39,038 nucleotides of DNA from a virus, in IMG/VR virus record IMGVR_UViG_3300009788_000191, positions 1 through 39,038 of that record; one strand, given 5' to 3'. A program made the translations under genes and the position numbers. Position 1 is the stretch's first letter. Each line of letters opens with the position of its first letter. Below, piece after piece: positions 1,551 through 39,038 of this stretch. The notes under the pieces are model-generated. The model searched no databases. It saw only the letters and a list, made by a program, of their open reading frames with translations, and was not told where the DNA came from.

Positions 1551-1718
1551 TCAGTTCTCCACAAATCTATTATAGTATTCGCTCTTTCTTATCTCATACG
1601 TAGTGAACCTGTTGCCACAATCATTGCAAACACGCCTACGTCGTATTGTTCTTCCGCCTCTTGCACTACGTGTCTCTCTAACCATATCATTCCAGCTACT
1701 ACAAATCTCACACCTCAT
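1551..1718 (-). CDS. Stand-alone NrdR-like zinc ribbon (55 residues)
   Basis: The 55-residue product starts MRCEICSSWNDMVRETRSAR and continues with a TIRRRRVCNDCGNRFTTYE block. This matches the N-terminal zinc ribbon of the ribonucleotide reductase repressor NrdR (MRCPxC ... RRRRxCxxCxxRFTTYE). Zinc ligands are C3, C6, C31 and C34, and the basic IRRRR strand that contacts DNA is kept. The ATP-cone that follows in cellular NrdR (about 150 residues in total) is absent. The start overlaps the portal 3' end by 11 bases. It is probably a small phage DNA-binding regulator; an NrdR-box target or interference with host NrdR is inference. Confidence 0.8.
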   Translation of the reverse strand: MRCEICSSWNDMVRETRSARGGRTIRRRRVCNDCGNRFTTYEIRKSEYYNRFVEN

Positions 1719-3243
1719 CGGTGTCAACTCCTTCTATGTCGTCTTCTGTAATCTCGCTAGCCAACTCTATTTCTTCGTCAGAGTAGCTTAGCTCTCTTTT
1801 CAAGAACAGATCTACAGGAACAACATTCTCAGTTCCTGGAGTACTAACATATTTTACTAATGACTCTGTCCTCATTCTTCCTATCTCTGCTTTATCCTTC
1901 TCCTCTAATACTACAAGAGGATCCCATGTAACTGTATAGTCAGTGCTAGGATCAGCAAGAATACCAAGGCTTATTAACCTATCTATAAGAGGAACTAATA
2001 TTATCTCTTTGGCTACGGATTCTCTTCTATGCTCTATCAACTTAAGCCATGCTCTCTCATCTTGCGTAGAAGCTAGCTCTCCTCTCTCTGATCCAGTAAG
2101 CATCCTTATGGGCATTCCAGTAGCAGCAGCAATCATCTGCAGTTGTACTTCTACATGGTCGCTAGGTGAAACAACTTGTGGGGCCAGAGGCTTAATATCA
2201 ACACCTTCAACGAATAAGAATCGTTGCATGTCATTAATATAGTTAGTTAGCTCTGACTTTATAGCATTTAACTGTGTTTGGTTAACCACGCTATCTTGTA
2301 GGGCTTGTGCAGTATAACCTGGCCTTGCTCCCCTCCAATACATTTCAGGAGAGCCACCACAGAGTTTGTCTAAGCCAATGAGTCTGTTGTATATAGGTTC
2401 CATGAATGGGATACCATATACTTCGCTTTCTAGTGTATTCTCTGCAACATGTATTACTCTTGTCCAATTAACGTGTTTAGTGGAGGTGCTTGCATCACCA
2501 ACATTGAACTGTATTTGATACATCAACGGAAGCCCGAATCTTGGAGACTTTGCATCTATATCCCATAAACTTATAGATACTCTATTCTCTGGCAATGCAC
2601 TTAAATAATTAACTCCCTTAACATTCTCTGCTGGTTGCGAAACATTGTCTGCTGAATCATCAAGGCCTAAGAATAAAACAGCATACCTTCCAAGAGACGC
2701 CAATAGATCTACTTTCCTTAGATAGAAATATAGATTTGTTTCATCTGCAAATAGTTTGTAATCTTTCTCAAAGGCTGTCTCTTCTGCTGCAGTTTCAGAC
2801 ACATACGGAGGCGCACCCCATGTTGCTTGAACAGGTGCAGATATAACTCTATGAGCAATGTCCTGTCTCTTGTATCTATGTCTATAATCTTCGTACGATA
2901 TACTAGTTGGATAGTTTAATGCTTGGTATAAAGTAGACTCATTGGACGAGAACCTATTTGACAACTGCTTCTGTAAACTATTCGCCTTAACCATTAACTG
3001 CTTAACTTCATCATCGGTATCGGTACTGGACTCATACCCAGCCATACCGAACAACTTTCCTCTATCAATGCTATAATGCTCAGCAAGCTTTCGTAGCCTT
3101 CCCTGAGAAGGTGGGTTTGCATTCTTGCCATTTTCCATAGCATGAATACAGTACCTGGATATTCCCGTACTATCAGCTACTTCTTTTATTGTCTGCTTCC
3201 TGTAAGATCTTGCATTCTTTAAAGTATTGGCTAAATCATTCAT
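1708..3243 (-). CDS. Portal protein with N-terminal XRE-type HTH domain
   Basis: The 511-residue product has two parts. Residues about 5-65 form an XRE/HTH_3-type helix-turn-helix (LKNARSYRKQTIKEVADSTG, then a recognition helix around ISRYCIHAMENG). After a polar linker, residues about 90-490 look like the DUF1073/Phage_portal_3 family: YKRQDIAHRVISAPVQATW near the start, YLRKVDLLASLGRYAVLFLG, a central insertion, and ATGMPIRMLTGSERGELAST. The portal forms the dodecameric DNA gate at the capsid vertex. The start at 3243 has an AGGA site nine bases upstream; no good SD precedes an internal ATG at residue 84, so the HTH seems to be translated as part of the protein. The acidic C-terminus overlaps the zinc-ribbon gene. 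Confidence 0.85.
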   Translation of the reverse strand: MNDLANTLKNARSYRKQTIKEVADSTGISRYCIHAMENGKNANPPSQGRLRKLAEHYSIDRGKLFGMAGYESSTDTDDEVKQLMVKANSLQKQLSNRFSSNESTLYQALNYPTSISYEDYRHRYKRQDIAHRVISAPVQATWGAPPYVSETAAEETAFEKDYKLFADETNLYFYLRKVDLLASLGRYAVLFLGLDDSADNVSQPAENVKGVNYLSALPENRVSISLWDIDAKSPRFGLPLMYQIQFNVGDASTSTKHVNWTRVIHVAENTLESEVYGIPFMEPIYNRLIGLDKLCGGSPEMYWRGARPGYTAQALQDSVVNQTQLNAIKSELTNYINDMQRFLFVEGVDIKPLAPQVVSPSDHVEVQLQMIAAATGMPIRMLTGSERGELASTQDERAWLKLIEHRRESVAKEIILVPLIDRLISLGILADPSTDYTVTWDPLVVLEEKDKAEIGRMRTESLVKYVSTPGTENVVPVDLFLKRELSYSDEEIELASEITEDDIEGVDTDEV

Positions 3244-3244
3244 T

Positions 3245-3838
3245 TTAATGTCCTATCACTCTAAGCTTCTTACTTCTGTTTAACTTGTCTTCTATGTACC
3301 ATACTACCATAGCTAGAGACATTACAGTATCATCATGATATCCACTTGCTGCCTCCATCTTTATTCCTCTTCCAGAAGTTATAGTAAAGTTTATCAACTC
3401 CTTTATTAAGACATCGATGCACTGTATGCCCTTCGCTAGTTGCAGTTTGCTACATTGTATAGCAACTTGCAACCTTGATATCAATTCCAACTTAGGAACT
3501 GTTACTGATCTTCCTGTTGCCCAGTTAGATTTATGTCCACCTGTTATGGTAAGTCCTATTGTATTTATGTCGTAATCATTTAGTAAATCTACCACTGGTC
3601 TTCCTACCCCAGTGTAATCTACTATCAACACATACTCGTCCAACTCTCTGTTTTTTATGAACTTTTCTAAGTATTCAACTACATAGACATAACTCATTCT
3701 AAGGGGGAACCTGTATACATAAGGAACATTTATAGAAAGAGATCCGTCAGTGCCGAATACCGGCTCAGCCACAGTTAAAACAGTATAGTCGTTTTGCTGT
3801 CCCAGATCAAGACCCAATGTGTACTTTACAAACATTCG
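3245..3838 (-). CDS. Large terminase, separate nuclease domain
   Basis: The 197-residue product is the RNase H-like nuclease half of a large terminase. Metal-binding acids are visible: D10 in LGLDLGQQND, D73 in LIVDYTGVGRP, and D168/D169 in GYHDDTVMSLAM. It would cut concatemeric DNA during packaging. The ATPase half is a separate gene 1.6 kb upstream on the same strand (5456-6211). The ATG at 3838 has GGGAG 11 bases upstream; a TTG at 3856 would add six residues. Frame upstream is closed by TAA inside the hairpin at 3859-3886, so no direct read-through fusion is possible. It sits one base upstream of the portal gene. Confidence 0.85.
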   Translation of the reverse strand, partial: RMFVKYTLGLDLGQQNDYTVLTVAEPVFGTDGSLSINVPYVYRFPLRMSYVYVVEYLEKFIKNRELDEYVLIVDYTGVGRPVVDLLNDYDINTIGLTITGGHKSNWATGRSVTVPKLELISRLQVAIQCSKLQLAKGIQCIDVLIKELINFTITSGRGIKMEAASGYHDDTVMSLAMVVWYIEDKLNRSKKLRVIGH

Positions 3839-3858
3839 TGTTGCAACTCCCAACAAGT

Positions 3859-5051: not shown

Positions 5052-5465
5052 TTACTTTCTTAAACTATATTCCTCGCTCTTATTTAAATCACAATATATA
5101 ACTATACTATATGGTCTAGATTCTTTATGTTCATACAAAGGACATCTATAAACGATATACTCATTCTTCTCTTCATGTGGCCTGACAATTGGATACAATT
5201 CCTTTACCATCCTTGCACCACCTGTTGCAGCAGCATTTGTTCTAGCTCCAGACGATAGTTTAGTATACCCAACACTACGAAACACATTGTCAATCTCATC
5301 TATGAACTCAAACACGACTATGCGCTTTTTATCCATAACGGTGAATCGCACACCTTCGTATTCGTGCAACTCGAACTCATTAGTCGCTACGGTATTGAAT
5401 ATATAGGTTGTCTTCTTTCCAAATGTAACAAATGGATGCCCGTTTTTCCAACCATCTAAGCCCAT
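5052..5465 (-). CDS. Hypothetical protein between terminase halves
   Basis: The 137-residue product is not recognised. It is predicted mixed alpha/beta and soluble, with FELHEYEGVRFTVMDKKRIV and an AAATGGARMVKELYPIV block. The ATG overlaps the last ten bases of the terminase ATPase gene, so the two are probably translationally coupled and this is a real gene rather than an intron remnant. It has no motif of homing endonucleases or inteins (no LAGLIDADG, GIY-YIG or HNH). Confidence 0.6.
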   Translation of the reverse strand: MGLDGWKNGHPFVTFGKKTTYIFNTVATNEFELHEYEGVRFTVMDKKRIVVFEFIDEIDNVFRSVGYTKLSSGARTNAAATGGARMVKELYPIVRPHEEKNEYIVYRCPLYEHKESRPYSIVIYCDLNKSEEYSLRK

Positions 5466-6211
5466 ACTTCCACCTCATCAGTTATACATTTAATTATGTC
5501 GTCATAAGAGAATAGCTGAGTTTCATTGTCAACAAACTCACAAAAGTATTCTTGCTTAACCCACCATTCACCCATTCTCTTCATTTCAGTATTTATAAAA
5601 TCATCAGTTATTCTCGGACAGTCACTTGCAGTTATCTTTATCTTAAACCAGTCATCATCACCTACCCAAGCCTTATGGAACCATCCCTGCTTACCAAAGG
5701 GGGTAGTTAGGGCTAAGATCTTACCTCTTGATATGGCTAACATAGGGCGTACTGAGTTGTACAATTCCTCTCCTACTCTTGATGCTTCATCTATTATAAT
5801 AAGAGACACGGCTGAATAAGCACGAATAGTATCCTCTCTACCAGGTAGGCTTAATATTCTACTGCCGTTATCCAACTCTATCTCTGATTGGTTTTCCTTG
5901 ACAATTGCCAAGACAGAGGAGACGAAAGGAACTCCAACCTTTACTTTCCTTAACAACTCCTCAGCTTGGCGATATGCTTTTGATACGATTATTACTAAAG
6001 AATTACTTTTAAAAGCAGCCTGATGTAATGCTAGGGTAGCACTAACTGTTGACTTCCCAGACTGTCTTGAGCAGAGCAACAGAGACTCTTGAGGAAAATT
6101 ATCTAATAGACCAATCTGCCAATCATCTGGCTTCATGTTAAAAGCCTTATACATGAATAACGATGGACTCATGGATGATGCGACAAAATCTTTTAGACTA
6201 GTCTTTTTCAT
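5456..6211 (-). CDS. Large terminase, separate ATPase domain
   Basis: The 251-residue product is the packaging motor half of a large terminase. Walker A is CSRQSGKS at 47-54, Walker B LIIIDE at 137-142, and the coupling motif LTTP at 168-171 is followed by GKQGWFHKAW. It ends around the linker CEFVDNETQLFSYDDI where the nuclease domain normally continues. Here the ORF stops after VEVWA and the nuclease is encoded at 3245-3838. The two products would have to associate, or the ATPase acts with nuclease supplied in trans. It starts four bases inside the end of the kinase gene. Confidence 0.88.
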   Translation of the reverse strand: MKKTSLKDFVASSMSPSLFMYKAFNMKPDDWQIGLLDNFPQESLLLCSRQSGKSTVSATLALHQAAFKSNSLVIIVSKAYRQAEELLRKVKVGVPFVSSVLAIVKENQSEIELDNGSRILSLPGREDTIRAYSAVSLIIIDEASRVGEELYNSVRPMLAISRGKILALTTPFGKQGWFHKAWVGDDDWFKIKITASDCPRITDDFINTEMKRMGEWWVKQEYFCEFVDNETQLFSYDDIIKCITDEVEVWA

Positions 6212-8607: not shown

Positions 8608-9156
8608 TTATAAGTTACTATCAAGTGCCTTTGCTACTGCTAGTTTTGCCTCTGGGAAAGGTTCAAGCGCTACTAATATTACGGCTAACGTATCTTTCCA
8701 GTCTGTCTCATTTGTATCGTCTAAGACAAAAGCAGAAGCTTTTAACACCATCTCCAGTATCTGTCTTGCTTCCCTTATTGCAGCTAGTCTGAGCTTGTGC
8801 TTTCCTGTTTCTTCGCACTCAGCCATTACCTGCAAACAACTTGTATACAATACCTTAATGTTTTCTGAAAGAGTAGAAACGTTTAACTCAACTCTTTTTG
8901 CCTCTATAGTTGATGGCAATCCAGCTCTTTCCGCTGTAGGAATGGATTTGCCCATTTCCTCTTTGTATCTACGTTTAAGCTTATCAAGTTGTCCTTTCGT
9001 TATACCGCATTTCCTGAGATGATTCTCTACTGTTCTTTTATCAAAACCAAATTCATTGGCGATACTATTAATAGATCTACCATCTCTCAGCAAAGCGTCG
9101 ATAGAGGCACAATGATCACTTAAACAAATATTGCAATAACCTTTTCTATAAGCCAT
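8608..9156 (-). CDS. Small terminase subunit-like DNA-binding protein
   Basis: The 182-residue product has an N-terminal Cys pair (CNICLSDHCASID) followed by a helix-turn-helix around SINSIANEFGFDKRTVENHL, then a long helical region ending in an AIREARQILEMV-type segment. That order fits small terminases, which bind phage DNA to start packaging. It is the first gene of the terminase/portal operon. A TTGACA-17-TATAAG promoter lies so close that transcription should start at or within a base or two of the ATG at 9156, giving an essentially leaderless message; no SD is visible. Confidence 0.7.
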   Translation of the reverse strand: MAYRKGYCNICLSDHCASIDALLRDGRSINSIANEFGFDKRTVENHLRKCGITKGQLDKLKRRYKEEMGKSIPTAERAGLPSTIEAKRVELNVSTLSENIKVLYTSCLQVMAECEETGKHKLRLAAIREARQILEMVLKASAFVLDDTNETDWKDTLAVILVALEPFPEAKLAVAKALDSNL

Positions 9157-9162
9157 ATTTAA

Positions 9163-9191
9163 CTTATACTATGCATGTAGTGTGCTGTCAA
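9163..9191 (-). promoter_or_regulatory. Sigma-70-type promoter for terminase operon, leaderless geometry
   Basis: On the minus strand TTGACA (9191-9186), a 17-base spacer and TATAAG (9168-9163) form a near-consensus promoter. Start of transcription about seven bases on coincides with the small terminase ATG at 9156. The spacer carries CTACATGCATAG, related to a motif in the other control promoters. Confidence 0.75.
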
Positions 9192-9239
9192 GGATTATCA
9201 GATAGAAATTGACAAATAATTTAGGCTAGAAAATAGAAA

Positions 9240-9269
9240 TCCTCCCGACTTTTGCGTTAGAAGGGAGGA
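9240..9269 (-). terminator. GC-rich hairpin in leader, possible attenuator
   Basis: The perfect 7-bp arms TCCTCCC and GGGAGGA enclose a 16-base loop. On the minus strand TTTCTATTTTCT follows. A second GGAGG (9284-9288) can compete for the same CCTCC partner, which would allow alternative folds. It lies between the two minus-strand promoters. Confidence 0.45.
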
Positions 9270-9324
9270 CTTCTACTCTCTTAGGAGGTAGAGACTTTTT
9301 AAAACAAACTTATAGTTAAGCAGC

Positions 9325-9353
9325 AATGTACACTACATACAGAGTGTTGTCAA
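9325..9353 (-). promoter_or_regulatory. Second minus-strand promoter upstream of terminase operon
   Basis: TTGACA (9353-9348), a 17-base spacer and TACATT (9330-9325) match sigma-70 spacing. The spacer contains GTATGTAG immediately before the -10, the same motif found in the early promoter near 10.5 kb. A transcript from here would carry the hairpin at 9240-9269 in its leader. Confidence 0.6.
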
Positions 9354-9551
9354 CAATTATTTATATCTTTAAAGAAAAAAAACTTATAAGTTGCTGATAT
9401 AGCAAAGCCCCATAATCTTTGTTAGGCTAGTTAAACCAAAGAGAACAGGGCTATGCAGGGAATAAGTCTTTATCTACTTTGCAGACTACTATACCGATCT
9501 ACTAAATACAATGCTTATTTATAAATAAGAAAATGGTTGTCATTCCAGCAG

Positions 9552-9573
9552 TATAAAATATTTATATTTTATA
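9552..9573. repeat. AT-only inverted repeat
   Basis: The arms TATAAAATA and TATTTTATA (9 bp) flank a 4-base loop. They are followed by TATATATTC, a pyrimidine tract and phased GTTACAT boxes. The same order of elements recurs at 36570-36673. Confidence 0.6.
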
Positions 9574-9606
9574 TATATTCTTTCTTCTCTCTTCTTTCTT
9601 CTACGT

Positions 9607-9635
9607 GTTACATTGATGTTACATTTCCGTTACAC
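9607..9635 (+). repeat. Three phased boxes GTTACAT, 11-bp period
   Basis: GTTACAT lies at 9607-9613 and 9618-9624, and GTTACAC at 9629-9635, with exactly 11 bp between starts. The preceding pyrimidine tract from 9591 is identical to that at 36607 for 23 bases including the first box. The boxes lie upstream of the minus-strand terminase promoters and just past the 3' end of the radical-SAM gene. Confidence 0.8.
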
Positions 9636-9639
9636 CATC

Positions 9640-10350
9640 CTAAAGACCACTGATACTGCAATTCTTAACCATAGGTTTAACTATTTTTAAGAAGCTAATC
9701 ATCTCATCTTCCGGTATGAAAGGATTTTCACCATTGAAGAAACCCTTGTTTAATATACAAGCTACGTTTCTATTATATGGCTGCAAGGTATATCGTTTAG
9801 CATCTTTTATTAAATAACATATTTGTTTTATTGTTTCTTTGTCTATTAAAGAATTGACACAAGTAGTTCGAAACTCATAATCAGTAGCACTGCTCATAAG
9901 TATATCAATACTCCTTCTTACTGCATTCACAACATTTGTTTCAGCCGTGAACGGCCTGTATAGAACTCCTGACGGGTATGTCTTGATATCCATTGAGATG
10001 TAATCTATAAGCTTGCGATCTAACAACTCAGATAATACATCTGGTCTACTTCCATTAGTGTCAAGCTTTAATTTATAACCCATCTTCTTTATAGAATAGC
10101 ATAGATCCAATAAGCCATCATCAATAGTTGGCTCTCCTCCGCTTATTACTATTCCATCGTATATATTCTTTCTTTCTTTAATAAGATCCATTATTTCTTT
10201 TACATCCACTCCTTCTTTTTCTTTATTCAATACTGTCTGTGGATTGTGACAGTACGGACAGGAGAAGTTACACCCAGAAACAAACAGGACACAACTTATT
10301 TTTCCATAGAAATCATTTAATGATACTTTCTCAATACCAATAATTAACAT
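9640..10350 (-). CDS. Radical SAM activase, NrdG2-like
   Basis: The 236-residue product carries the radical-SAM CxxxCxxC cluster motif (C27, C31, C34 in SGCNFSCPYCHNPQ), GGEP at 71-74 and a DTNGSRP strand. The CHNPQ form and overall size match the NrdG2 branch of anaerobic ribonucleotide reductase activating proteins, which use a 4Fe-4S cluster and S-adenosylmethionine to make a glycyl radical. The start is at 10350 after AAAGGAAATAT; longer readings pass through the leader hairpins. No class III reductase gene is in the window, so it may activate a host enzyme or do other radical chemistry. It lies alone between the two main transcription units. Confidence 0.8.
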   Translation of the reverse strand: MLIIGIEKVSLNDFYGKISCVLFVSGCNFSCPYCHNPQTVLNKEKEGVDVKEIMDLIKERKNIYDGIVISGGEPTIDDGLLDLCYSIKKMGYKLKLDTNGSRPDVLSELLDRKLIDYISMDIKTYPSGVLYRPFTAETNVVNAVRRSIDILMSSATDYEFRTTCVNSLIDKETIKQICYLIKDAKRYTLQPYNRNVACILNKGFFNGENPFIPEDEMISFLKIVKPMVKNCSISGL

Positions 10351-10369
10351 ATATTTCCTTTGGCATATT

Positions 10370-10430
10370 AAAAAGAAAGCCCCGTATCTGAGGCAAATAC
10401 GAGGCTCGTGGGGTTGCTCCTTTCGGAGCA
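10370..10430 (-). terminator. Two-hairpin leader with intrinsic terminator before radical-SAM gene
   Basis: On the minus strand a 6-bp hairpin TGCTCC-GAAA-GGAGCA (10430-10415) is followed by a 10-bp stem AGCCTCGTAT/ATACGGGGCT (10406-10378) with a 9-base loop, then TTCTTTTT. This is a strong rho-independent terminator 20 bases before the radical-SAM start codon. It either ends transcription entering from the upstream side or acts as an attenuator. Confidence 0.75.
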
Positions 10431-10509
10431 CAGAAAGAACACATGGCTACCCTATCAATAACATTTTGATAGTCAACTAAATAAAAATAAACTTTTTTTA
10501 AAAAAGTAC

Positions 10510-11518: not shown

Positions 11519-12157
11519 ATGATCAGAACATACAAGATTACACTAGATGATAAAATGTTAGAAGAACACAAACCAAAAAGGCCAAGAAAAGCAAACAAAG
11601 AAATAAAATTAGCCGAGTCTATCAAATTAATGGCTAATGAGGGTTTCGCTCTTGTACTAAACTCATTCATAGCAAGAGAGCGTAGAAAAAGTAAAGTTTT
11701 TTGGGAAGGAACTCCAACTTCATTGATTGTTGCTTTGAATGCTGAGAGAGAACACTATTTTAAAGATTGTATTAATATCAGTTATAGACTTTGGCCTAAT
11801 AATCCTTCTTCTCTGTCAAAAAAATTAGCAAAGATATCCAAAGCTTTAAAAACAAAAGGTATTCATGTCATTTTGGGCCTGAGAGATAGTGTTGGACGCC
11901 GTATTACCACAATAAGTTGGGAGCCATCTAATATATATAAAAATAGCAACTCCGATGAAGAGAATGTAGTTTATAGAAATACAGAACCAGACGTATATAA
12001 AAAAGAGATTTTACCAAAACAAATTAAGACTGTGTCGTTCAGAGTTCCTGTTGAATTATGGGAGGCCTTTCGTATAAGAGCATTAAAGGAAAGGACTTCG
12101 ATGCAGAAAATAGTTATAAATCTTATTAATTCGTACCTAGATCAGGAAAAGTTTTAG
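11519..12157 (+). CDS. Winged-helix plus ribbon-helix-helix DNA-binding protein
   Basis: The 212-residue product joins two DNA-binding types. Residues about 55-140 (FWEGTPTSLIVALN ... RLWPNNPSSLSKKLAKISKA ... GRRITTISW) resemble the winged-helix domain found at the C-terminus of phage D5-type primase/helicases. Residues about 165-212 (IKTVSFRVPVELWEAFRIRA ... MQKIVINLINSYL) look like a ribbon-helix-helix of the Arc/CopG type. No primase or helicase active site is present. It is probably a sequence-specific DNA-binding protein, and a candidate ligand for the phased GTTACAT boxes (inference). Confidence 0.6.
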   Translation: MIRTYKITLDDKMLEEHKPKRPRKANKEIKLAESIKLMANEGFALVLNSFIARERRKSKVFWEGTPTSLIVALNAEREHYFKDCINISYRLWPNNPSSLSKKLAKISKALKTKGIHVILGLRDSVGRRITTISWEPSNIYKNSNSDEENVVYRNTEPDVYKKEILPKQIKTVSFRVPVELWEAFRIRALKERTSMQKIVINLINSYLDQEKF

Positions 12158-12467: not shown

Positions 12468-12665
12468 ATGGAGATTGAAAACCTTTTGGAGGCTTCGGAG
12501 GTTGCCTCCATCATAGGGATAAAGAAAGAAACATTAAGGTCATGGAGGGCAAAGAGGGTTGGCCCTCCCTTCATAAAAATACAAAAAACAATAAGATACA
12601 ACAAGGACGATTTATCTGAATATCTAAATGAAAAAGCTAAGGGGACAACATGTACAACAAAGTAA
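12468..12665 (+). CDS. AlpA/excisionase-like HTH protein
   Basis: The ATG follows AGAGGAGAGCA. The 65-residue product has the HTH_17/AlpA layout: LLEASEVASIIGIKKETLRS, then WRAKRVGPPFIKI and a RYNKDDLSEYL wing. The family includes excisionases and small transcription activators. There is no integrase here, so regulation is the more likely role. The 3' end overlaps ssb by 16 bases. Confidence 0.75.
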   Translation: MEIENLLEASEVASIIGIKKETLRSWRAKRVGPPFIKIQKTIRYNKDDLSEYLNEKAKGTTCTTK

Positions 12666-13045
12666 CAATAATCGGTAACTTAGGAAGAGATCCAGAGGCA
12701 AAGCAAAGTGGATCTGGAACTGACTTCTCTACATTCTCTGTGGGAACTCAGAATAGAAGCGAAGATAAAACAGAATGGTTTAACGTAGTTGCTTTTGGAA
12801 AAGTTGGCGTAGCTTGTAGTGAGTATCTAAAAAAGGGAGATAAAGTATTTGTAGAAGGACCATTAAGAAGTAACGAGTGGGAAGATGGTGAAGGACTTAA
12901 AAGAACTAGCTATTCTGTAACTGGAAACACTGTTAAGTTCTTATCACCAAAAAAAGAAAGCTTTGATCGACCTGATGATAATGGGCAGAGAGAGGATCCC
13001 TCTTCCCTTACACAAAGTAAATTGGATAAAGACATTCCTTTTTAG
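12650..13045 (+). CDS. ssb: Single-stranded DNA-binding protein
   Basis: The 131-residue product is a bacterial-type SSB with an OB fold: YNKVTIIGNLGRDPEAKQSG, TEWFNVVAFGKVGVACSEYL, KKGDKVFVEGPLRSNEW. It ends in the acidic tip DKDIPF (residues 126-131), the signature that recruits partner enzymes. It protects single strands during replication and works with the exonuclease and annealing protein downstream. The start overlaps the preceding HTH gene. Confidence 0.92.
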   Translation: MYNKVTIIGNLGRDPEAKQSGSGTDFSTFSVGTQNRSEDKTEWFNVVAFGKVGVACSEYLKKGDKVFVEGPLRSNEWEDGEGLKRTSYSVTGNTVKFLSPKKESFDRPDDNGQREDPSSLTQSKLDKDIPF

Positions 13046-13052
13046 AGGTGAC

Positions 13053-13232
13053 ATGGGATTCAATCTTGTAACAGAAAAACAAGTGTCAGAAATGTTAGGG
13101 GTCACATTAGATACTGTAAGAAGATGGAGGAGAGAGAATCGTGGCCCTTCTTTCCTTACTCTAGGAAAACTAGCACGATACGATAGAAAAGATATAGAGG
13201 AGTTTAGAAACAAAAAAAGGAGGAAGAAATGA
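13053..13232 (+). CDS. AlpA/excisionase-like HTH protein
   Basis: The start is at the ATG at 13053, behind AGAGGTGAC; a longer frame inside ssb has no SD. The 59-residue product (LVTEKQVSEMLGVTLDTVRR, WRRENRGPSFLTLGKLARY) is a full MerR-like HTH with wing and a very basic end. It resembles the product of 12468-12665 closely enough to suggest duplication. Confidence 0.7.
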   Translation: MGFNLVTEKQVSEMLGVTLDTVRRWRRENRGPSFLTLGKLARYDRKDIEEFRNKKRRKK

Positions 13233-15052: not shown

Positions 15053-15940
15053 ATGAAATCTATAAGCATAACTAGAATAGAAGATATTGAGAGATTGGCA
15101 GAAGGTGTAGCTAAGGGATATGCAATAGCAAAGAAGATACCTAGAAGAGGTGATAGAGTACCTGACGAACTCACAAAGAAAGAATACGTATTCATGACAA
15201 TGGTAATGGGATTAGAGATAGGTATGAAACCTATGCAAGCTCTTCAAAACATAAGCCTTATAGATGGAAAACCTGTCTTGTGGGGAGATGGAATGATAGC
15301 AGTTGTTAGAGACTCTGGCGAGTTAGAATCTTTCAATGAATCATACTCAAATATTGACTATGATTCAACAAAGATGACTAGAAAGCAACTGTCAACAGAT
15401 GTTTATACTGATGACTTCTGTGCCATATGTAAGATAAAGAGAAAAGGGTATGAAGAAAAGATATACAAGTTTTCAGTAACAGACGCTAAGATAGCTAATC
15501 TGTGGTGTTTTACTACTGATGTTAAAGGTAAGCAATACACTCCCTGGTATAAATATCCAAAAAGAATGTTGCAGATGAGGGCAAGGTCATGGGCCTTAAG
15601 AGATACTTTTGCTGATCACTTAGCTGGGTTCTCTACAGTAGAGGAAACAAGGGATATACATCAACAGTACGACGTTGTTGCTGACAATACTCCAGATGAC
15701 GTTATAATAGAAGCAAAAGAAACAGTTACCAAAGAAAAACCTAAGAAAAAAATAGAGAAAAAAGAAAACAAATTGACTGATCCTACAGGTAGTGGTAGAG
15801 AGAAGGAAGAAAGAATTAAAGAATACGTATCTCACCTAGCTAAAACATTAAATAGAAAAGAAGAAAACATAGTCGAAAGAGCTAACAAGAACTTTGAACC
15901 ATTCTACTCAAGTTATTCAGATTGGTCTGTAGGAGAGTAG
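15053..15940 (+). CDS. recT: RecT-family single-strand annealing protein
   Basis: The 295-residue product matches RecT-type annealing proteins: FMTMVMGLEIGMKPMQALQN, LIDGKPVLWGDGMIAVVRDS, then FSVTDAKIANLW and YPKRMLQMRARSWALRDTFA, followed by DHLAGF. Residues after about 215 form a charged Lys/Glu-rich tail and an end domain. The protein coats and anneals complementary single strands produced by the exonuclease. The start follows AGGAGGAACAC. Confidence 0.85.
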   Translation: MKSISITRIEDIERLAEGVAKGYAIAKKIPRRGDRVPDELTKKEYVFMTMVMGLEIGMKPMQALQNISLIDGKPVLWGDGMIAVVRDSGELESFNESYSNIDYDSTKMTRKQLSTDVYTDDFCAICKIKRKGYEEKIYKFSVTDAKIANLWCFTTDVKGKQYTPWYKYPKRMLQMRARSWALRDTFADHLAGFSTVEETRDIHQQYDVVADNTPDDVIIEAKETVTKEKPKKKIEKKENKLTDPTGSGREKEERIKEYVSHLAKTLNRKEENIVERANKNFEPFYSSYSDWSVGE

Positions 15941-15976
15941 CTTTATGGTGATTGATGAAAGTCTTTGGGAGGAGAC

Positions 15977-16708
15977 ATGAGCAAACTTACATGGTCAAAA
16001 TGGTTTTGGGATGCACATTCAAAGAGCTGGAGAGGGCATCCCTTATGGATGGAAGGTGCATGGATGAGGGTGTTGGAACAATTGCATTCGTCTAAGGAGA
16101 CAGGGGTCATGTCGAGACCCATTAACTCTTGGGCTATGATAATAGGTTGTACAGAAAAAGAAGCAGATGAGTTTATAAAACATATAGATAAATATGACCT
16201 AGCTTCTGTGGAATTTGGTGATGACATTACAATATCATCAAGAAGAATGATTAGAAATGAAGAAGAAAGAAACGGTACTGCTGATAGAGTAAGAAAACAT
16301 AGAGCAAAAAAAGTAGAAATAAAAACAGAGGTCAAGGAGAAAAAAGCTACAAATAGTAAGAGCTCTGAAAGAAGATCAGATATGCTTAAAAAACTTAGAG
16401 AAGCATATCCACAAAATCGAGCGCATCTCCAACCTTCAACACAAAGAGAAGAATTTAAAAAGATAATGATTGAATGCTCTAAGAATATTGCACCAAACAA
16501 TAAAGAAGTAGAAGAGATGGCATTATTCAAAAAGATACAGACACGTATAATGACCATGAGTGACACTAGTGAGTGGACAAAAGAAGACGGTAAGTTTGTT
16601 CCAGGTCTCGGCAACTTCTTAAAGTCTAGGGCATGGGAAACAAGTCATGTTATAAAAGCTGACGTAAAGAAGATAAAAGAACACGAAACTAATAATCTTT
16701 GGGGGTAG
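15977..16708 (+). CDS. Replication initiator/DnaD-like protein
   Basis: The start is at the ATG at 15977 after GGGAGGAGAC. The 243-residue product has an N-terminal winged-helix region (WFWDAHSKSWRGHPLWMEGA ... ISSRRMIRNEEERNGTADRV) like phage replisome organisers and DUF1376 proteins. A basic linker follows. The C-terminus is typical of helicase-loading partners (LFKKIQTRIM, EWTKEDGKFVPGLGNFLKSR). With the DnaC-like gene next door it should recruit the host helicase to the phage origin, as lambda O does with P. Confidence 0.7.
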   Translation: MSKLTWSKWFWDAHSKSWRGHPLWMEGAWMRVLEQLHSSKETGVMSRPINSWAMIIGCTEKEADEFIKHIDKYDLASVEFGDDITISSRRMIRNEEERNGTADRVRKHRAKKVEIKTEVKEKKATNSKSSERRSDMLKKLREAYPQNRAHLQPSTQREEFKKIMIECSKNIAPNNKEVEEMALFKKIQTRIMTMSDTSEWTKEDGKFVPGLGNFLKSRAWETSHVIKADVKKIKEHETNNLWG

Positions 16709-16710
16709 CT

Positions 16711-17472
16711 ATGAAGCTTGATCTGTTTAGCAATGGAAAAGGATCTTGTTGCAAGTGTGGAGCAGAAACTGAATACAAATTAATAAGATATTGCGAAGAA
16801 TGTTTCGAGTCAGAGCAGAAACGAATAGACTCAGAGGAACGGATACAAAAGAGATCAATGCTACTTTCTTCATCAGGAATTCCTAGAAAGATGAGAGATA
16901 ACGGATTAGACTCATTCTTGCCGACTTATAATCAAAAGAAAGCAATAAGCTTATTAACAAATCAGATAGAATCATATGGCACCGAAACTAGTTGGCAACT
17001 TCCTTATCTATACGGATCTCCAGGCACAGGAAAAACTCTAATAGCTATAGCTTCTTGTATTGAGTTCATAAACAGAAGAAACGCAAGTGTTAAGTATATA
17101 CATGTTCCAGATATAATGATAGATAATGAGTTCTATAAAGAAAATAAGTCGATGATGCAGTCTTGTCAAATGCTTGTGTTAGATGACATAGGTCACCATA
17201 ATACGAATCAATACTCTATAAATATGTTATACAATATAATAAATTATAGACTAATGAATCAGATGGGAGTAATGATAATAAGCAACTTTTCTGTAGAAGA
17301 GCTTACATACAAGTTAAGCAAAGATAATGATAAGATAAATGATATGACATGCGTTGCTTTAAGAGATAGAATAATGGAAATGTGCTTACCAATAGAGATA
17401 AAAGAAGAGAACATAAGAATTAGAAAAGCTATAAAAAGAACAAAAGATAGATATAAACACTTAGGAATATAA
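16711..17472 (+). CDS. DnaC-like helicase loader ATPase
   Basis: The 253-residue product is an AAA+ protein. Residues 12-31 hold a Cys cluster (SCCKCG ... YCEEC), a likely zinc finger. Walker A is GSPGTGKT at 102-109, Walker B MLVLDDIG around 154-161, sensor region MIISNFS, and an arginine-bearing ALRDRIMEM motif. This is the DnaC/IstB-like loader family, which opens the replicative helicase ring. It begins two bases after the initiator-like gene and overlaps rusA by one base. Confidence 0.85.
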   Translation: MKLDLFSNGKGSCCKCGAETEYKLIRYCEECFESEQKRIDSEERIQKRSMLLSSSGIPRKMRDNGLDSFLPTYNQKKAISLLTNQIESYGTETSWQLPYLYGSPGTGKTLIAIASCIEFINRRNASVKYIHVPDIMIDNEFYKENKSMMQSCQMLVLDDIGHHNTNQYSINMLYNIINYRLMNQMGVMIISNFSVEELTYKLSKDNDKINDMTCVALRDRIMEMCLPIEIKEENIRIRKAIKRTKDRYKHLGI

Positions 17473-17855
17473 TGAAACGTATTTTCTTTATACCTGGACC
17501 ATTGCCGTCTATGAATGAGATAATAACAGCAAGCTCAACAGTTCTAAAAGGCGGCATAAGGTTTGGTTCTAAATATTCAGTAATGAAAAAGAAATGGCAA
17601 AAAATAATATCAGATATAGCAATATCAGAAGGAATAAATCCTGTTGTAGGTACCTACACTTGTAGTTTTGATTGGATAGAAAAGACAAGAAGAAAAGACC
17701 CTGACAATATATCTGTTGGAGTTAAATTTATCTTTGATGCACTTGTAGAAGTAGGGATCCTTGAGGGAGACACCTGGAGATTCAACAAAGGATGGGCAAA
17801 TACTTTCTCTACAGGAAAAGCACCAGGTGTAACAGTTCATATTTATGAATATTAA
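17472..17855 (+). CDS. rusA: RusA-like Holliday junction resolvase
   Basis: The 127-residue product has the RusA layout: IPGPLPSMNE near the start and RRKDPDNISVGVKFIFDALV with the paired acids D76 and D78, then GILEGD, where D100 fits the third catalytic acid. RusA is a metal-dependent resolvase of Holliday junctions, needed to clear branches before packaging. The ATG overlaps the previous stop (TAATG). It is the last gene of the plus-strand operon. Confidence 0.85.
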   Translation: MKRIFFIPGPLPSMNEIITASSTVLKGGIRFGSKYSVMKKKWQKIISDIAISEGINPVVGTYTCSFDWIEKTRRKDPDNISVGVKFIFDALVEVGILEGDTWRFNKGWANTFSTGKAPGVTVHIYEY

Positions 17856-35100: not shown

Positions 35101-36483
35101 CTAGAATAAAGAAGGAGCCTCACAACGTTTCTTGTCAGATACTTCCATGCCAGCCTGTAGGCTGTAATCAACCTTACGTTCTACTGCTTTTTCTTTAATA
35201 GCTTCCCCAACTAAAGAAGCAATGGCTTTGAGTTCTTTCGTTTCTGTTTTTTCTAAGAAGTTTGGACAGAATTTAACTTTCTCATAGCCATTGATTGCAA
35301 CTACTAAAGCAGAGCGTTGCTCTTCTCTTTCTCTCATAGCATCTGCAATAGCGCCTCTAAGTTCTTCTGGAGCGGTAGCTAATACATCCTGCATTGTTAC
35401 TGGGGCCTGTGGCTTTTCTTCTTTTGCTTCTACAACATTACAAGCATTAACTTCAGCTTTATCTTTCTTTTCTTCCATCTTGGTTTCCTTTTTAGCAAAT
35501 TCAGATTTCAAGAGCCTGTTGGCCATCTTTTGGGCAGACGCCCTAGCACCTTCTGATATTTTAGCTTGTGCGCCCCTACCAGATAGCACCGCTCTCAATG
35601 CACCTTCGTTTAGTTTGTTAGTAGATGGGTCAACAACAGGGAAAAATATTAAATCATCGCTAGTCTTAGCTCTAGAATCACCCAATAATGTCTTCGAAGC
35701 TATCCAATCCTTAGCAGATGATGATAACTCAGTTACATCAGATGGTAAAACTTCTGGTTTATTGGCCTTAAGCTGGCCGTAGTAAGCTTTTATATATTCA
35801 TGAAGGTCTTTACTAATATCTCCCCATGAAATACTCTCCACGCCTGAGTAAGCCGGCTTCCTAGAAACTACTCTAGTAGCGTTAACTAATTCTTTTTCTC
35901 CATTCATTCTTATTCCACATCCGTCAGACCAACTGCACGCACCCAATACATCGGGTAATACAGCTAAATGGTCACCAACAATGTTAGTCATGCGTTGTGT
36001 GTAATCAGTACCATTAAAGTTTCCCTTTTCATGGATTATATCTCCGAATGCACCTACGCTCAACTCTATTTTATCGCCTTGACGAATTTTGTCAACAATA
36101 AATTCACCTCTATCCTTATCTAACCATAGATCGGCTCGTAATTTGTTTCCTACCTGGTCAAACATAGCATTGAATACATATCCAATAAGTTGACCGTCTA
36201 GAACATAAGGAACATTACAAGAGGTGTTGCCAATGGGGTGATACAACGATACTGGTCTGCCATTCCATGTGTGCACGCTCTCAGATATGTCATCTCCATC
36301 AAAGTATAGAGACACAGGATCTTCGAAAGTACTAACAGCTGGAGTGAATGCTCCTTCTACCAACATGATAGATGGAACTATATAATAATTCTTACCAGCA
36401 AAACTACCATCGTTGATAATTACTTGGTCATCAAGGAAATCACAAGTGATAAGAACACTTCTTAACTCTGACTTCGCTGTCAT
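35101..36483 (-). CDS. DUF2213 prohead protease with scaffold tail
   Basis: The 460-residue product has a DUF2213 protease domain in residues 1-195: WNGRPVSLYHPIGNTSC, KIELSVGAFGDI (serine), RMTNIVGDHLAVLPDVLGAC and SDGCGIRMNGE (histidine in DHLAVL). The middle has a FFPVVDPSTNKLNEGALRAV block found after DUF2213. The last 130 residues are charged and helical (KMEEKKDKAEV ...), typical of internal scaffolds. It organises the prohead and then cuts itself and the scaffold. First gene of the capsid operon. Confidence 0.82.
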   Translation of the reverse strand: MTAKSELRSVLITCDFLDDQVIINDGSFAGKNYYIVPSIMLVEGAFTPAVSTFEDPVSLYFDGDDISESVHTWNGRPVSLYHPIGNTSCNVPYVLDGQLIGYVFNAMFDQVGNKLRADLWLDKDRGEFIVDKIRQGDKIELSVGAFGDIIHEKGNFNGTDYTQRMTNIVGDHLAVLPDVLGACSWSDGCGIRMNGEKELVNATRVVSRKPAYSGVESISWGDISKDLHEYIKAYYGQLKANKPEVLPSDVTELSSSAKDWIASKTLLGDSRAKTSDDLIFFPVVDPSTNKLNEGALRAVLSGRGAQAKISEGARASAQKMANRLLKSEFAKKETKMEEKKDKAEVNACNVVEAKEEKPQAPVTMQDVLATAPEELRGAIADAMREREEQRSALVVAINGYEKVKFCPNFLEKTETKELKAIASLVGEAIKEKAVERKVDYSLQAGMEVSDKKRCEAPSLF

Positions 36484-36512
36484 GCCATCTCCTTATAAAA
36501 ATTAAAGTTATG

Positions 36513-36518
36513 ATTATA
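36513..36518 (-). promoter_or_regulatory. Minus-strand -10 box for capsid operon
   Basis: A perfect TATAAT lies about 30 bases before the protease start codon. At the -35 place (17 bases further) is TCCAAT, a poor match. ATTACATACTGTG lies in the spacer. A consensus -10 without -35 is what activator-dependent promoters show; the phased GTTACAT array lies about 105 bases upstream. Confidence 0.5.
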
Positions 36519-36569
36519 TAACACAGTATGTAATCATTGGAAAGAGTTTATTTCAGTAGCCCTCGCGCG

Positions 36570-36600
36570 TATATAGAGAATACGTAGTATTCTTTATATA
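36570..36600. repeat. 14-bp inverted repeat (palindrome)
   Basis: The arms TATATAGAGAATAC and GTATTCTTTATATA pair with one G-T mismatch around a 3-base GTA loop. It lacks a T-tract and is followed by the pyrimidine tract and phased boxes. It may form a cruciform, be a dimeric protein site, or help strand opening at an origin. Confidence 0.8.
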
Positions 36601-36622
36601 CTCTTTCTTCTTTCTTCTACGT

Positions 36623-36673
36623 GTTACATCGCTGTTACATTTCTGTTACATAGCCGTTACATTTGCGTTACAT
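36623..36673 (+). repeat. Five phased boxes GTTACAT, 11-bp period
   Basis: Five perfect GTTACAT heptamers start at 36623, 36634, 36645, 36656 and 36667, each exactly 11 bp apart, with non-conserved 4-base spacers. One box per helical turn puts the sites on one DNA face. The conserved heptamer with variable spacers shows selection on protein binding rather than simple duplication. Confidence 0.93.
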
Positions 36674-36860
36674 AGATTCTATGATTCATAACTAACTGTA
36701 TAAACTGTATATTCGTAACTACAGGATCCTGTACAAATACTGTGTTAATTGATAAAAAAACAACAAATATACACTAAAACACTACATATAGTACTTAACC
36801 ATGACACCAGATGTAGCGCTTTAGTTGTTTTTACTGTTAAAATAGAGACAAGAAACGGAC

Positions 36861-36933
36861 TTGTAACAAGTTTGTAACAACATTGTAACGGTAATGTAAC
36901 ACGAATGTAACAGCAATGTAACAAGAATGTAAC
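36861..36933 (-). repeat. Seven phased boxes ATGTAAC/TTGTAAC, 11-bp period, inverted
   Basis: On the plus strand GTAAC starts at 36863, 36874, 36885, 36896, 36907, 36918 and 36929, exactly every 11 bp, preceded by TT (first three) or AT (last four). This is the same heptamer as the 36623 array but in the opposite direction. The two arrays face each other across about 190 bp. Confidence 0.93.
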
Positions 36934-38155: not shown

Positions 38156-39038
38156 TTATATTCTAGAAATCCTTATTGAGCTATCTGTGGTAGGCGTTCC
38201 AGCATAAAGAGAAAAATTCTGCAAAGAGTTATTATGAAACAAGCCAATCTTGTACACAGTATCAGCTACTAGGGCAGAAGACCAAGACAAAACTACAGTC
38301 TTTGCGCCAATAGCAGTTGGTTCGTAGAAAAGGGAAGACCCGTATGCAGTGTTAAATTGGGTTGGAAGGTCGCCCGAATATATTTGACAAATTATATATG
38401 TTCCAGTGGTAGGGATAGCTGTTGTAAAATCAGAAGTAAGGTTTATGTCTATAGAGTATATCCCATCTGTCTTAGGTGTAAAAGTATTGTTTTCGACAGA
38501 AACGTTGTCGGCACAATCGAACACGGTACTAGCAAATGGAATGGTAGTATATACATCCTTAAGAGCTGAAAGGGCTGTAGTCCTTATAGAAACAGCCTCT
38601 TTAATAGCCTCATACACAACTCCAGTTGTTCCGTCAATTAGCAATGCGCCTGACACTGATTCTACATCGAAAGATATATCTCCATCATTGCCAATTGACA
38701 CACTTGTAGATCCAGCTTCTAAAAGTATATCTCCAACATCGCCAACTGACACACTTGTAGTTCCAGAAATTAAAGATATCTCTCCGCTGTTGCCAACCAT
38801 CACACTTGTAGCTCCAGCATCTAAAAATATATTTCCATTATTGCCAACTGACACACTTGTAGATCCAGCACTTAAAGATATGTCTCCATCATTGCCAACC
38901 AACACACTTGTAGTCCCAGCATTTAAAGAAACGTTTCCGCTTCCTCCGGCAAGTACAGTAGCATTCCCACTGCCAGTAGCACTCACAGTAACATCCCCAG
39001 TATCTTCTGCCAAAAAGTTTGCTCCGTTAGGTGCAGTC
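38156..39038 (-). CDS. Tail fibre with 17-residue repeats, partial at window edge
   Basis: The frame is open to the right edge, reading ACT GCA CCT AAC GGA upstream of a TTG at 39013, so the 5' end is missing. After a degenerate region come five 17-residue repeats of the type TTSVLVGNDGDISLSAG, likely a beta-helical or trimeric shaft. A C-terminal head domain (about the last 140 residues) begins near SVSGALLIDGTTGVVYEAIK and resembles C1q/TNF-like heads: FTPKTDGIYSIDINLTSDFT, ending SSIRISRI. It is a strong candidate for host binding. Confidence 0.7.
   Translation of the reverse strand, partial: TAPNGANFLAEDTGDVTVSATGSGNATVLAGGSGNVSLNAGTTSVLVGNDGDISLSAGSTSVSVGNNGNIFLDAGATSVMVGNSGEISLISGTTSVSVGDVGDILLEAGSTSVSIGNDGDISFDVESVSGALLIDGTTGVVYEAIKEAVSIRTTALSALKDVYTTIPFASTVFDCADNVSVENNTFTPKTDGIYSIDINLTSDFTTAIPTTGTYIICQIYSGDLPTQFNTAYGSSLFYEPTAIGAKTVVLSWSSALVADTVYKIGLFHNNSLQNFSLYAGTPTTDSSIRISRI
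38700..38909 (-). repeat. 51-bp tandem repeats inside fibre gene
   Basis: The string ACACTTGTAG (plus strand) recurs at about 38700, 38751, 38802 and 38853, and as ACACTTGTAGT at 38904, exactly 51 bp apart. Each unit encodes 17 residues of the fibre shaft. Flanking copies are degenerate, which suggests an array that grows and shrinks by recombination. Confidence 0.9.

Follow-up and report, generated by a model that had tools for sequence, protein, structure and literature searches.

One-box-per-turn repeat arrays at the heads of two late gene units of a little-known bacterial virus, with features of paired replication origins and of late-gene switches

The genome of phage SPP1 contains two replication origins, each composed of direct repeats and an AT-rich DUE, which are placed about 13 kb apart in one account (PMC6316719) and 12 kb apart in another (PMC3485210). 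According to the same sources SPP1 also encodes an initiator, a loader, an SSB, an annealing protein, an exonuclease and a resolvase. In lambda ori, four 18-bp iterons set at irregular steps of around 20–24 bp precede a purine-rich tract and then AT-rich DNA on the same strand, and the whole assembly is present as one copy inside gene O. Direct repeats are also found just upstream of late operons, as with the Alt/Ltr sites of TP901-1 and phi13. Alt is reported to bind at -76 to -32, where there are four imperfect direct repeats, and the activity of phi13 P23 was abolished by deletion of the repeat region from -107 to -42 (PMC13123087). The sites of Apl, RdfS and BldC have direct repeats that are one helical turn apart. 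Filament formation has been described for RdfS and BldC, and cooperative binding to direct repeats for Apl, a functional analogue (PMC11963761, PMC7498355).

The window described here, by which is meant the whole stretch of DNA that was analysed, is the 39,038-base record IMGVR_UViG_3300009788_000191 of a little-known bacterial virus. Its late genes form two leftward units, headed by terS (start at 9156) and by a protease gene (start at 36483), and its early operon runs rightward from 10582, giving two HTH_17 proteins, an RHH-like protein, an SSB, an exonuclease, RecT, an initiator-like protein, a DnaC-like loader and RusA. Searches with the terminase, RecT and capsid found distant relatives and did not fix the host, and tblastn against phages gave zero matches with either the RHH or the initiator-like protein as query. 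Scans of viral contigs with the protease, the initiator-like protein and the TerL ATPase as queries each returned the same single relative, IMGVR_UViG_3300024265_000021 (G001), and conservation is therefore judged here from one genome pair. G001 is 42,080 bases in length with a 127-bp terminal repeat, and shares about 69–84% DNA identity with the window where the two align. Within the late genes, the portal protein (1708-3243, minus strand) is a fusion of Phage_portal_3 with a Cro/C1-type helix-turn-helix (HTH_19, E 1.5e-9) at its N-terminus. The large terminase is apparently split on the minus strand into 3245-3856 and 5456-6211, the parts being an ATPase (Terminase_6N) and a nuclease-like protein (weak terL match, phrog_2), with three ORFs between them in an order that is kept in G001. 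A fibre-like ORF contains a 51-bp tandem repeat at 38665-38941.

An earlier note on this DNA had reported that a pyrimidine tract and the first of a set of phased boxes, at 9591-9613, recur without change over 23 bases at 36607-36629. The identity is exact and the maximal match is 24 bases (9590-9613 and 36606-36629). The two further boxes said to follow in 11-bp phase are present, as is the AT-rich inverted repeat before each pyrimidine tract on the plus strand, and both copies do lie upstream of minus-strand genes. What had been overlooked is that there are five boxes in the copy at 36623 and that an inverted array of seven boxes lies at 36933-36862. The composite element is real, duplicated and conserved, and a third array accompanies it; the coordinates are collected in Table 1. 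On the plus strand the order in both copies is AT palindrome, pyrimidine tract and then GTTACA boxes. Read on the minus strand, the boxes of array 1 are TGTAAC and face terS, which is some 450 bp away. Array 3 is without a purine tract and without a palindrome.

Pairs of GTTACA at exactly 11 bp were observed 12 times in the window and 0 times in each of 200 dinucleotide shuffles. An unbiased scan for any word of at least 6 bases, repeated at least 3 times with a constant period of 9–24, gave 13 matches in the window and 14 in G001, all of which fall in these arrays, and detected no other direct-repeat array of this kind in either genome. When the same scan was applied to mononucleotide shuffles, 19 of 20 gave none and one gave 2. 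The composite pattern of box plus tract matches G001 alone outside the window, at two places. An RNA family was ruled out by zero Rfam matches, and no published description of phage TGTAACA / GTTACAT repeats was found in literature listings that are poor in subscription papers.

G001 keeps three arrays, with 4, 5 and 7 boxes, along with both purine tracts and both palindromes; its array 1 has the 4 boxes, at G001:31022-31060. Between the two genomes the boxes changed at 0 of 90 positions and the spacers at 10 of 60 (Fisher p 6e-5), a count that is biased by the use of exact boxes to identify the arrays in the two genomes, and that leaves out the lost box next to the radical-SAM gene as well as degenerate boxes at array ends. 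The alignment of array 3 has an 11-column gap at the array end, with the phase preserved. At the array 1 palindrome one arm reads TATAAAATAT in the window and TATAGAATAT in G001, and the other arm shows the corresponding change; at the array 2 palindrome one arm differs between the genomes while its partner does not. From 36955 to 36569, bins of 25 columns are 76–100% identical to G001 except for the bin with the 11-bp gap, the segment between arrays 2 and 3 (76–96% identical) included, and these two arrays with the intervening 189 bp make up one conserved non-coding block.

Array 1 has a different neighbour in each genome. In G001 it adjoins a hairpin before the early promoter, whereas in the window array and hairpin are separated by a radical-SAM gene (9640-10431, minus strand), the end of which, at 9640, is 5 bp from the array. 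This gene has no G001 counterpart, save for 21 matching residues at the start of the ORF, and a fourth box of array 1 has apparently been lost at it.

The longest purine/pyrimidine run of G001 is also of 25 nt and also at its array 1. The distance from boxes to palindrome differs by around 7 bp between the two copies of the window. In terms of duplex stability, no 30-mer of the 39-kb record is weaker than 9552-9581, on the array 1 flank, and the least stable 100-mer lies on this flank too; in G001 the least stable 100-mers are at the array 2 flank and then at the array 1 flank. The array 2 flank of the window is within the top 0.5% for 30-mers and the top 3% for 100-mers, with lambda ori, as a yardstick, within the top 0.3% for 30-mers. 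Among 11 intergenic regions of at least 40 bp, taken from our own gene list, the two that bear the elements rank first and second by 30-mer instability, although the minimum of the second is at 36492-36521, near the protease start and away from the palindrome. By 100-mer instability the array 2 region is fifth of the 11.

Table 1. Coordinates of the box arrays, their flanking features and the candidate binding proteins in the window
Feature	Position	Strand	Remarks
Promoter, consensus sigma-70 (TTGACA-17-TATAAG)	9163..9191	-	directly before terS ATG
Terminator-like hairpin	9228..9281	-	z -5.0; between array 1 and terS promoter
AT-rich inverted repeat beside array 1	9552..9573		arms 9552-9561 / 9564-9573
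Homopurine tract at array 1	9578..9602	-	25 nt; longest purine/pyrimidine run of window
Array 1	9607..9634	+	three GTTACA boxes, 11-bp steps (9607, 9618, 9629)
Candidate binder 3	11519..12157	+	C-terminal ribbon-helix-helix-like domain; G001 match at that end alone
Candidate binder 1	12468..12665	+	65-aa HTH_17 winged-helix protein; 91% identical in G001
Candidate binder 2	12963..13232	+	HTH_17 protein; about 70% identical in G001
Candidate binder 4	15965..16708	+	replication-initiator-like protein; phrog_9474, E 3.3e-5 (modest)
DnaC-like helicase loader	16699..17472	+	match E 6.3e-37
AT-rich inverted repeat beside array 2	36569..36601		15 pairs, loop 3
Homopurine tract at array 2	36601..36618	-	18 nt
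Array 2	36623..36672	+	five GTTACA boxes, 11-bp steps
Segment between inverted arrays 2 and 3	36673..36861		non-coding, AT-rich (29.6% GC)
Array 3	36862..36933	-	seven GTTACA boxes, 11-bp steps; inverted relative to array 2

Other signals are found in the DNA around the arrays. The stretch 9228-9353 on the minus strand resembles a small RNA with anti-Shine-Dalgarno segments, in which a TTGACA-17-TACATT promoter precedes a conserved CU-rich stretch (ACCUCCU, UCCUCCC) and the terminator-like hairpin. A TATGTAG/CTACAT(G) motif, possibly a repressor operator, occurs at 9339, 10526, 9169-9185 and 36788; three TTGACA promoters carry it between their -35 and -10 boxes, and one copy lies between arrays 2 and 3.

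The two composite elements may be origin-type sites of the phage's own replicon, a reading of somewhat less than even probability. A role in origin function is nonetheless the most likely, with a late-gene switch almost as likely, and the anatomy and gene set fit the paired oriL and oriR origins of SPP1 slightly better than a late promoter. An origin is required in a phage that brings its own initiator-like protein and loader, and the arrays are the sole iteron-type candidates since they are unique in both genomes and the initiator gene is without direct repeats. The DNA next to this direct-repeat cluster is AT-rich and easily melted, to an extreme degree at array 1 in both genomes and at array 2 of G001, and the genes for replication and recombination comprise, beyond initiator-like protein and loader, those for SSB, RecT, exonuclease and RusA. 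As in SPP1, where the interval is 12–13 kb (PMC6316719, PMC3485210), there are two sites of direct repeats and AT-rich DNA; on the assumption of a circular record those of the window are about 12.0 kb apart, and those of G001 are separated by 12.6 kb. Whilst SPP1 oriL is inside the initiator gene and oriR elsewhere, both sites of this virus are intergenic, at the heads of late operons, with short boxes in 11-bp steps. The order of repeats, purine tract and AT-rich DNA on one strand is that of lambda ori, which differs in the length, spacing, number of copies and genic position of its iterons.

We infer the binding protein, the strand opening and the origin function along the following lines. 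An early phage DNA-binding protein, either the initiator-like protein (candidate binder 4) or a small winged-helix partner, would occupy one face of the DNA, binding a box at each helical turn. The adjoining purine tract and AT-rich palindrome would then open and the DnaC-like loader would bring in the replicative helicase. The two sites, about 12 kb apart, may act like oriL and oriR of SPP1, one of them starting replication and the second acting late or stalling the fork, so that recombination would make concatemers. An extra binding cluster that completes a larger site may be provided by array 3, which lies in inverted orientation 190 bp away from array 2. The initiator-like protein is 87% identical in G001, and its structure model (pLDDT 45) is too poor for use.

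Several features are less easily reconciled with origins. A core of 6–7 bp per 11 bp is smaller than the 18-bp iterons of lambda and more typical of regulators, the array 2 flank of the window is only moderately unstable, array 3 has neither tract nor palindrome, and both elements are exactly at the heads of the late units. Repeats inside or next to the initiator gene, which are common although not universal for origins, are absent here, and an origin inside that gene was ruled out by zero direct repeats in 15940-17480. Third-codon-position skew did not locate an origin. The strongest reason for limited confidence is that the same box code fronts sigma-70 promoters in other phages.

The earlier note had suggested a composite late control element. 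Its duplication at the heads of both leftward late units, kept in G001, stands, but the late-promoter role is only partly supported, given the terminator-like hairpin and promoters before terS. It is quite possible, although on balance doubtful, that an activator from the early operon attaches to the phased boxes, read in the TGTAAC direction, and brings in host RNA polymerase. Such a promoter would resemble the Alt/Ltr kind, with no -35 box, a -10 at the start of the AT palindrome, and the palindrome doubling as an operator. Placement exactly at the heads of two late units is what would be expected of promoter elements. Moreover, TATAAA/TATAAT hexamers like a -10 lie downstream of the last box, at 30–34 bp for array 2 and 39–46 bp for array 1, roughly one helical turn apart, and are present at these distances in both copies of both phages, a loose fit to the geometry given for Alt/Ltr in PMC13123087. 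The spacing between boxes and palindrome is nevertheless variable between the copies, and the early proteins scanned gave zero matches to families annotated as late activator. Within 120 bp of arrays 1 and 2 in the TGTAAC direction, no two-hexamer sigma-70 promoter stands out at matching positions in both phages; in the GTTACA direction of array 2 there is a weak TTCATA-17-TATATT / CATATT pair, at 41 bp and common to both. At array 1, unlike at Alt/Ltr sites, the boxes are separated from the late genes by a terminator-like hairpin and two strong promoters of conventional type. The -10 of one promoter, at 9163-9191, ends 6 nt before the terS ATG, which argues against the element being the terS promoter, and the other is a TTGACA-17-TACATT promoter between array 1 and terS. 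A further hairpin, conserved, lies at 9395-9460, also between array 1 and terS, and a terminase transcript started at the palindrome would have to cross both this and the 9228-9281 hairpin and would then meet the 9163-9191 promoter. No terminator is listed on the minus strand between array 2 and the protease gene. Identical boxes at the same 11-bp step, 3–4 in number, occur at a rigid distance from sigma-70 promoters in marine phage contigs whose appearance, by eye, is T4-like. In 9 marine loci chosen from 18 stretches, some of whose contigs are near-copies, TATAAT is at 53, 54 or 65 bases from the last box in 7 and absent in 2. The pattern of last box, 25 bp and TTTACA-17-TATAAT was found in 15 stretches and its variant with a 30-bp gap in 0; the boxed loci comprise L009, L010, L012, L015, L017, L023 and L025 in addition to those 15 stretches. 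The marine array is, as far as sequence can tell, an apparent activator code for a promoter class. Since the box is locked to a promoter in those unrelated phages the code serves transcription there, yet the promoter is on the opposite side of the boxes, in the GTTACA direction, an orientation opposite to that of the late units here, and no promoter so fixed is found near arrays 1–3.

The step of about one helical turn is also that of RDF/BldC-type sites, and it is conceivable, if unlikely, that a small HTH_17 protein assembles on the boxes as a head-to-tail polymer, with a monomer for each turn, and so represses or bends the three intergenic regions, in the manner of Apl between the promoters of phage 186. 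The binder, candidate 1 or 2, would be an excisionase-type protein without an integrase. Both candidates are above the Pfam HTH_17 cut-off, zero integrase matches were obtained among the proteins scanned, and RdfS (TM 0.70), BldC and Pukovnik Xis are among the best PDB matches to the model of candidate 1, although the Foldseek E-values are weak (best 1.2e-3). The early operon, however, encodes further candidate binders, and coating alone does not account for the purine tract and palindrome that accompany the boxes here and set them apart from Apl, RdfS and BldC sites. That an HTH_17 filament, again without an integrase, opens tract and palindrome and gates the late operons, making origin firing and late switching one event at two duplicated sites, is distinctly improbable. 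It is more improbable still that the boxes are sites of a host OmpR/PhoB-type response regulator exploited by the phage. Direct repeats of 11 bp suit the binding style of such regulators, which include those of the PHO box and TcpP (TGTAA-N6-TGTAA), and similar boxes were found in 79 stretches of bacterial genomes. By eye, these stretches are in unrelated contexts with no single promoter architecture, several being simple tandem repeats, and a simple host box shared across bacteria was rejected on these contexts. Three GTTACAT boxes recur beside a segment like CCCTTTATTTATSG in many Prevotella/Bacteroidales genomes, resembling part of a mobile or regulatory element (L071, L073, L079, L089, L090, L093, L099, L112, L118, L121, L132 and L146), and at three places in a Kiritimatiellae MAG three GTTACAT are directly followed by inverted GTAAC boxes (L075, L130 and L138). 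Least probable of all is a partition-type centromere bound by a ribbon-helix-helix protein. The phage does encode an RHH-like domain, which G001 retains, and R1 parC has 11-bp repeats, but neither a ParA nor a ParM gene turned up among the proteins scanned and two sites at late-operon heads would be left unexplained.

If the composite elements are paired origins, as is tentatively preferred, they would offer a way of recognising SPP1-like two-origin replication from sequence in uncultured phages, whose origins have seldom been located. Should they instead be the sites of a late activator, they would represent an activator code for a phage group without a known late regulator. On either reading, one box per helical turn, recurring in unrelated phages, is a compact and testable module.
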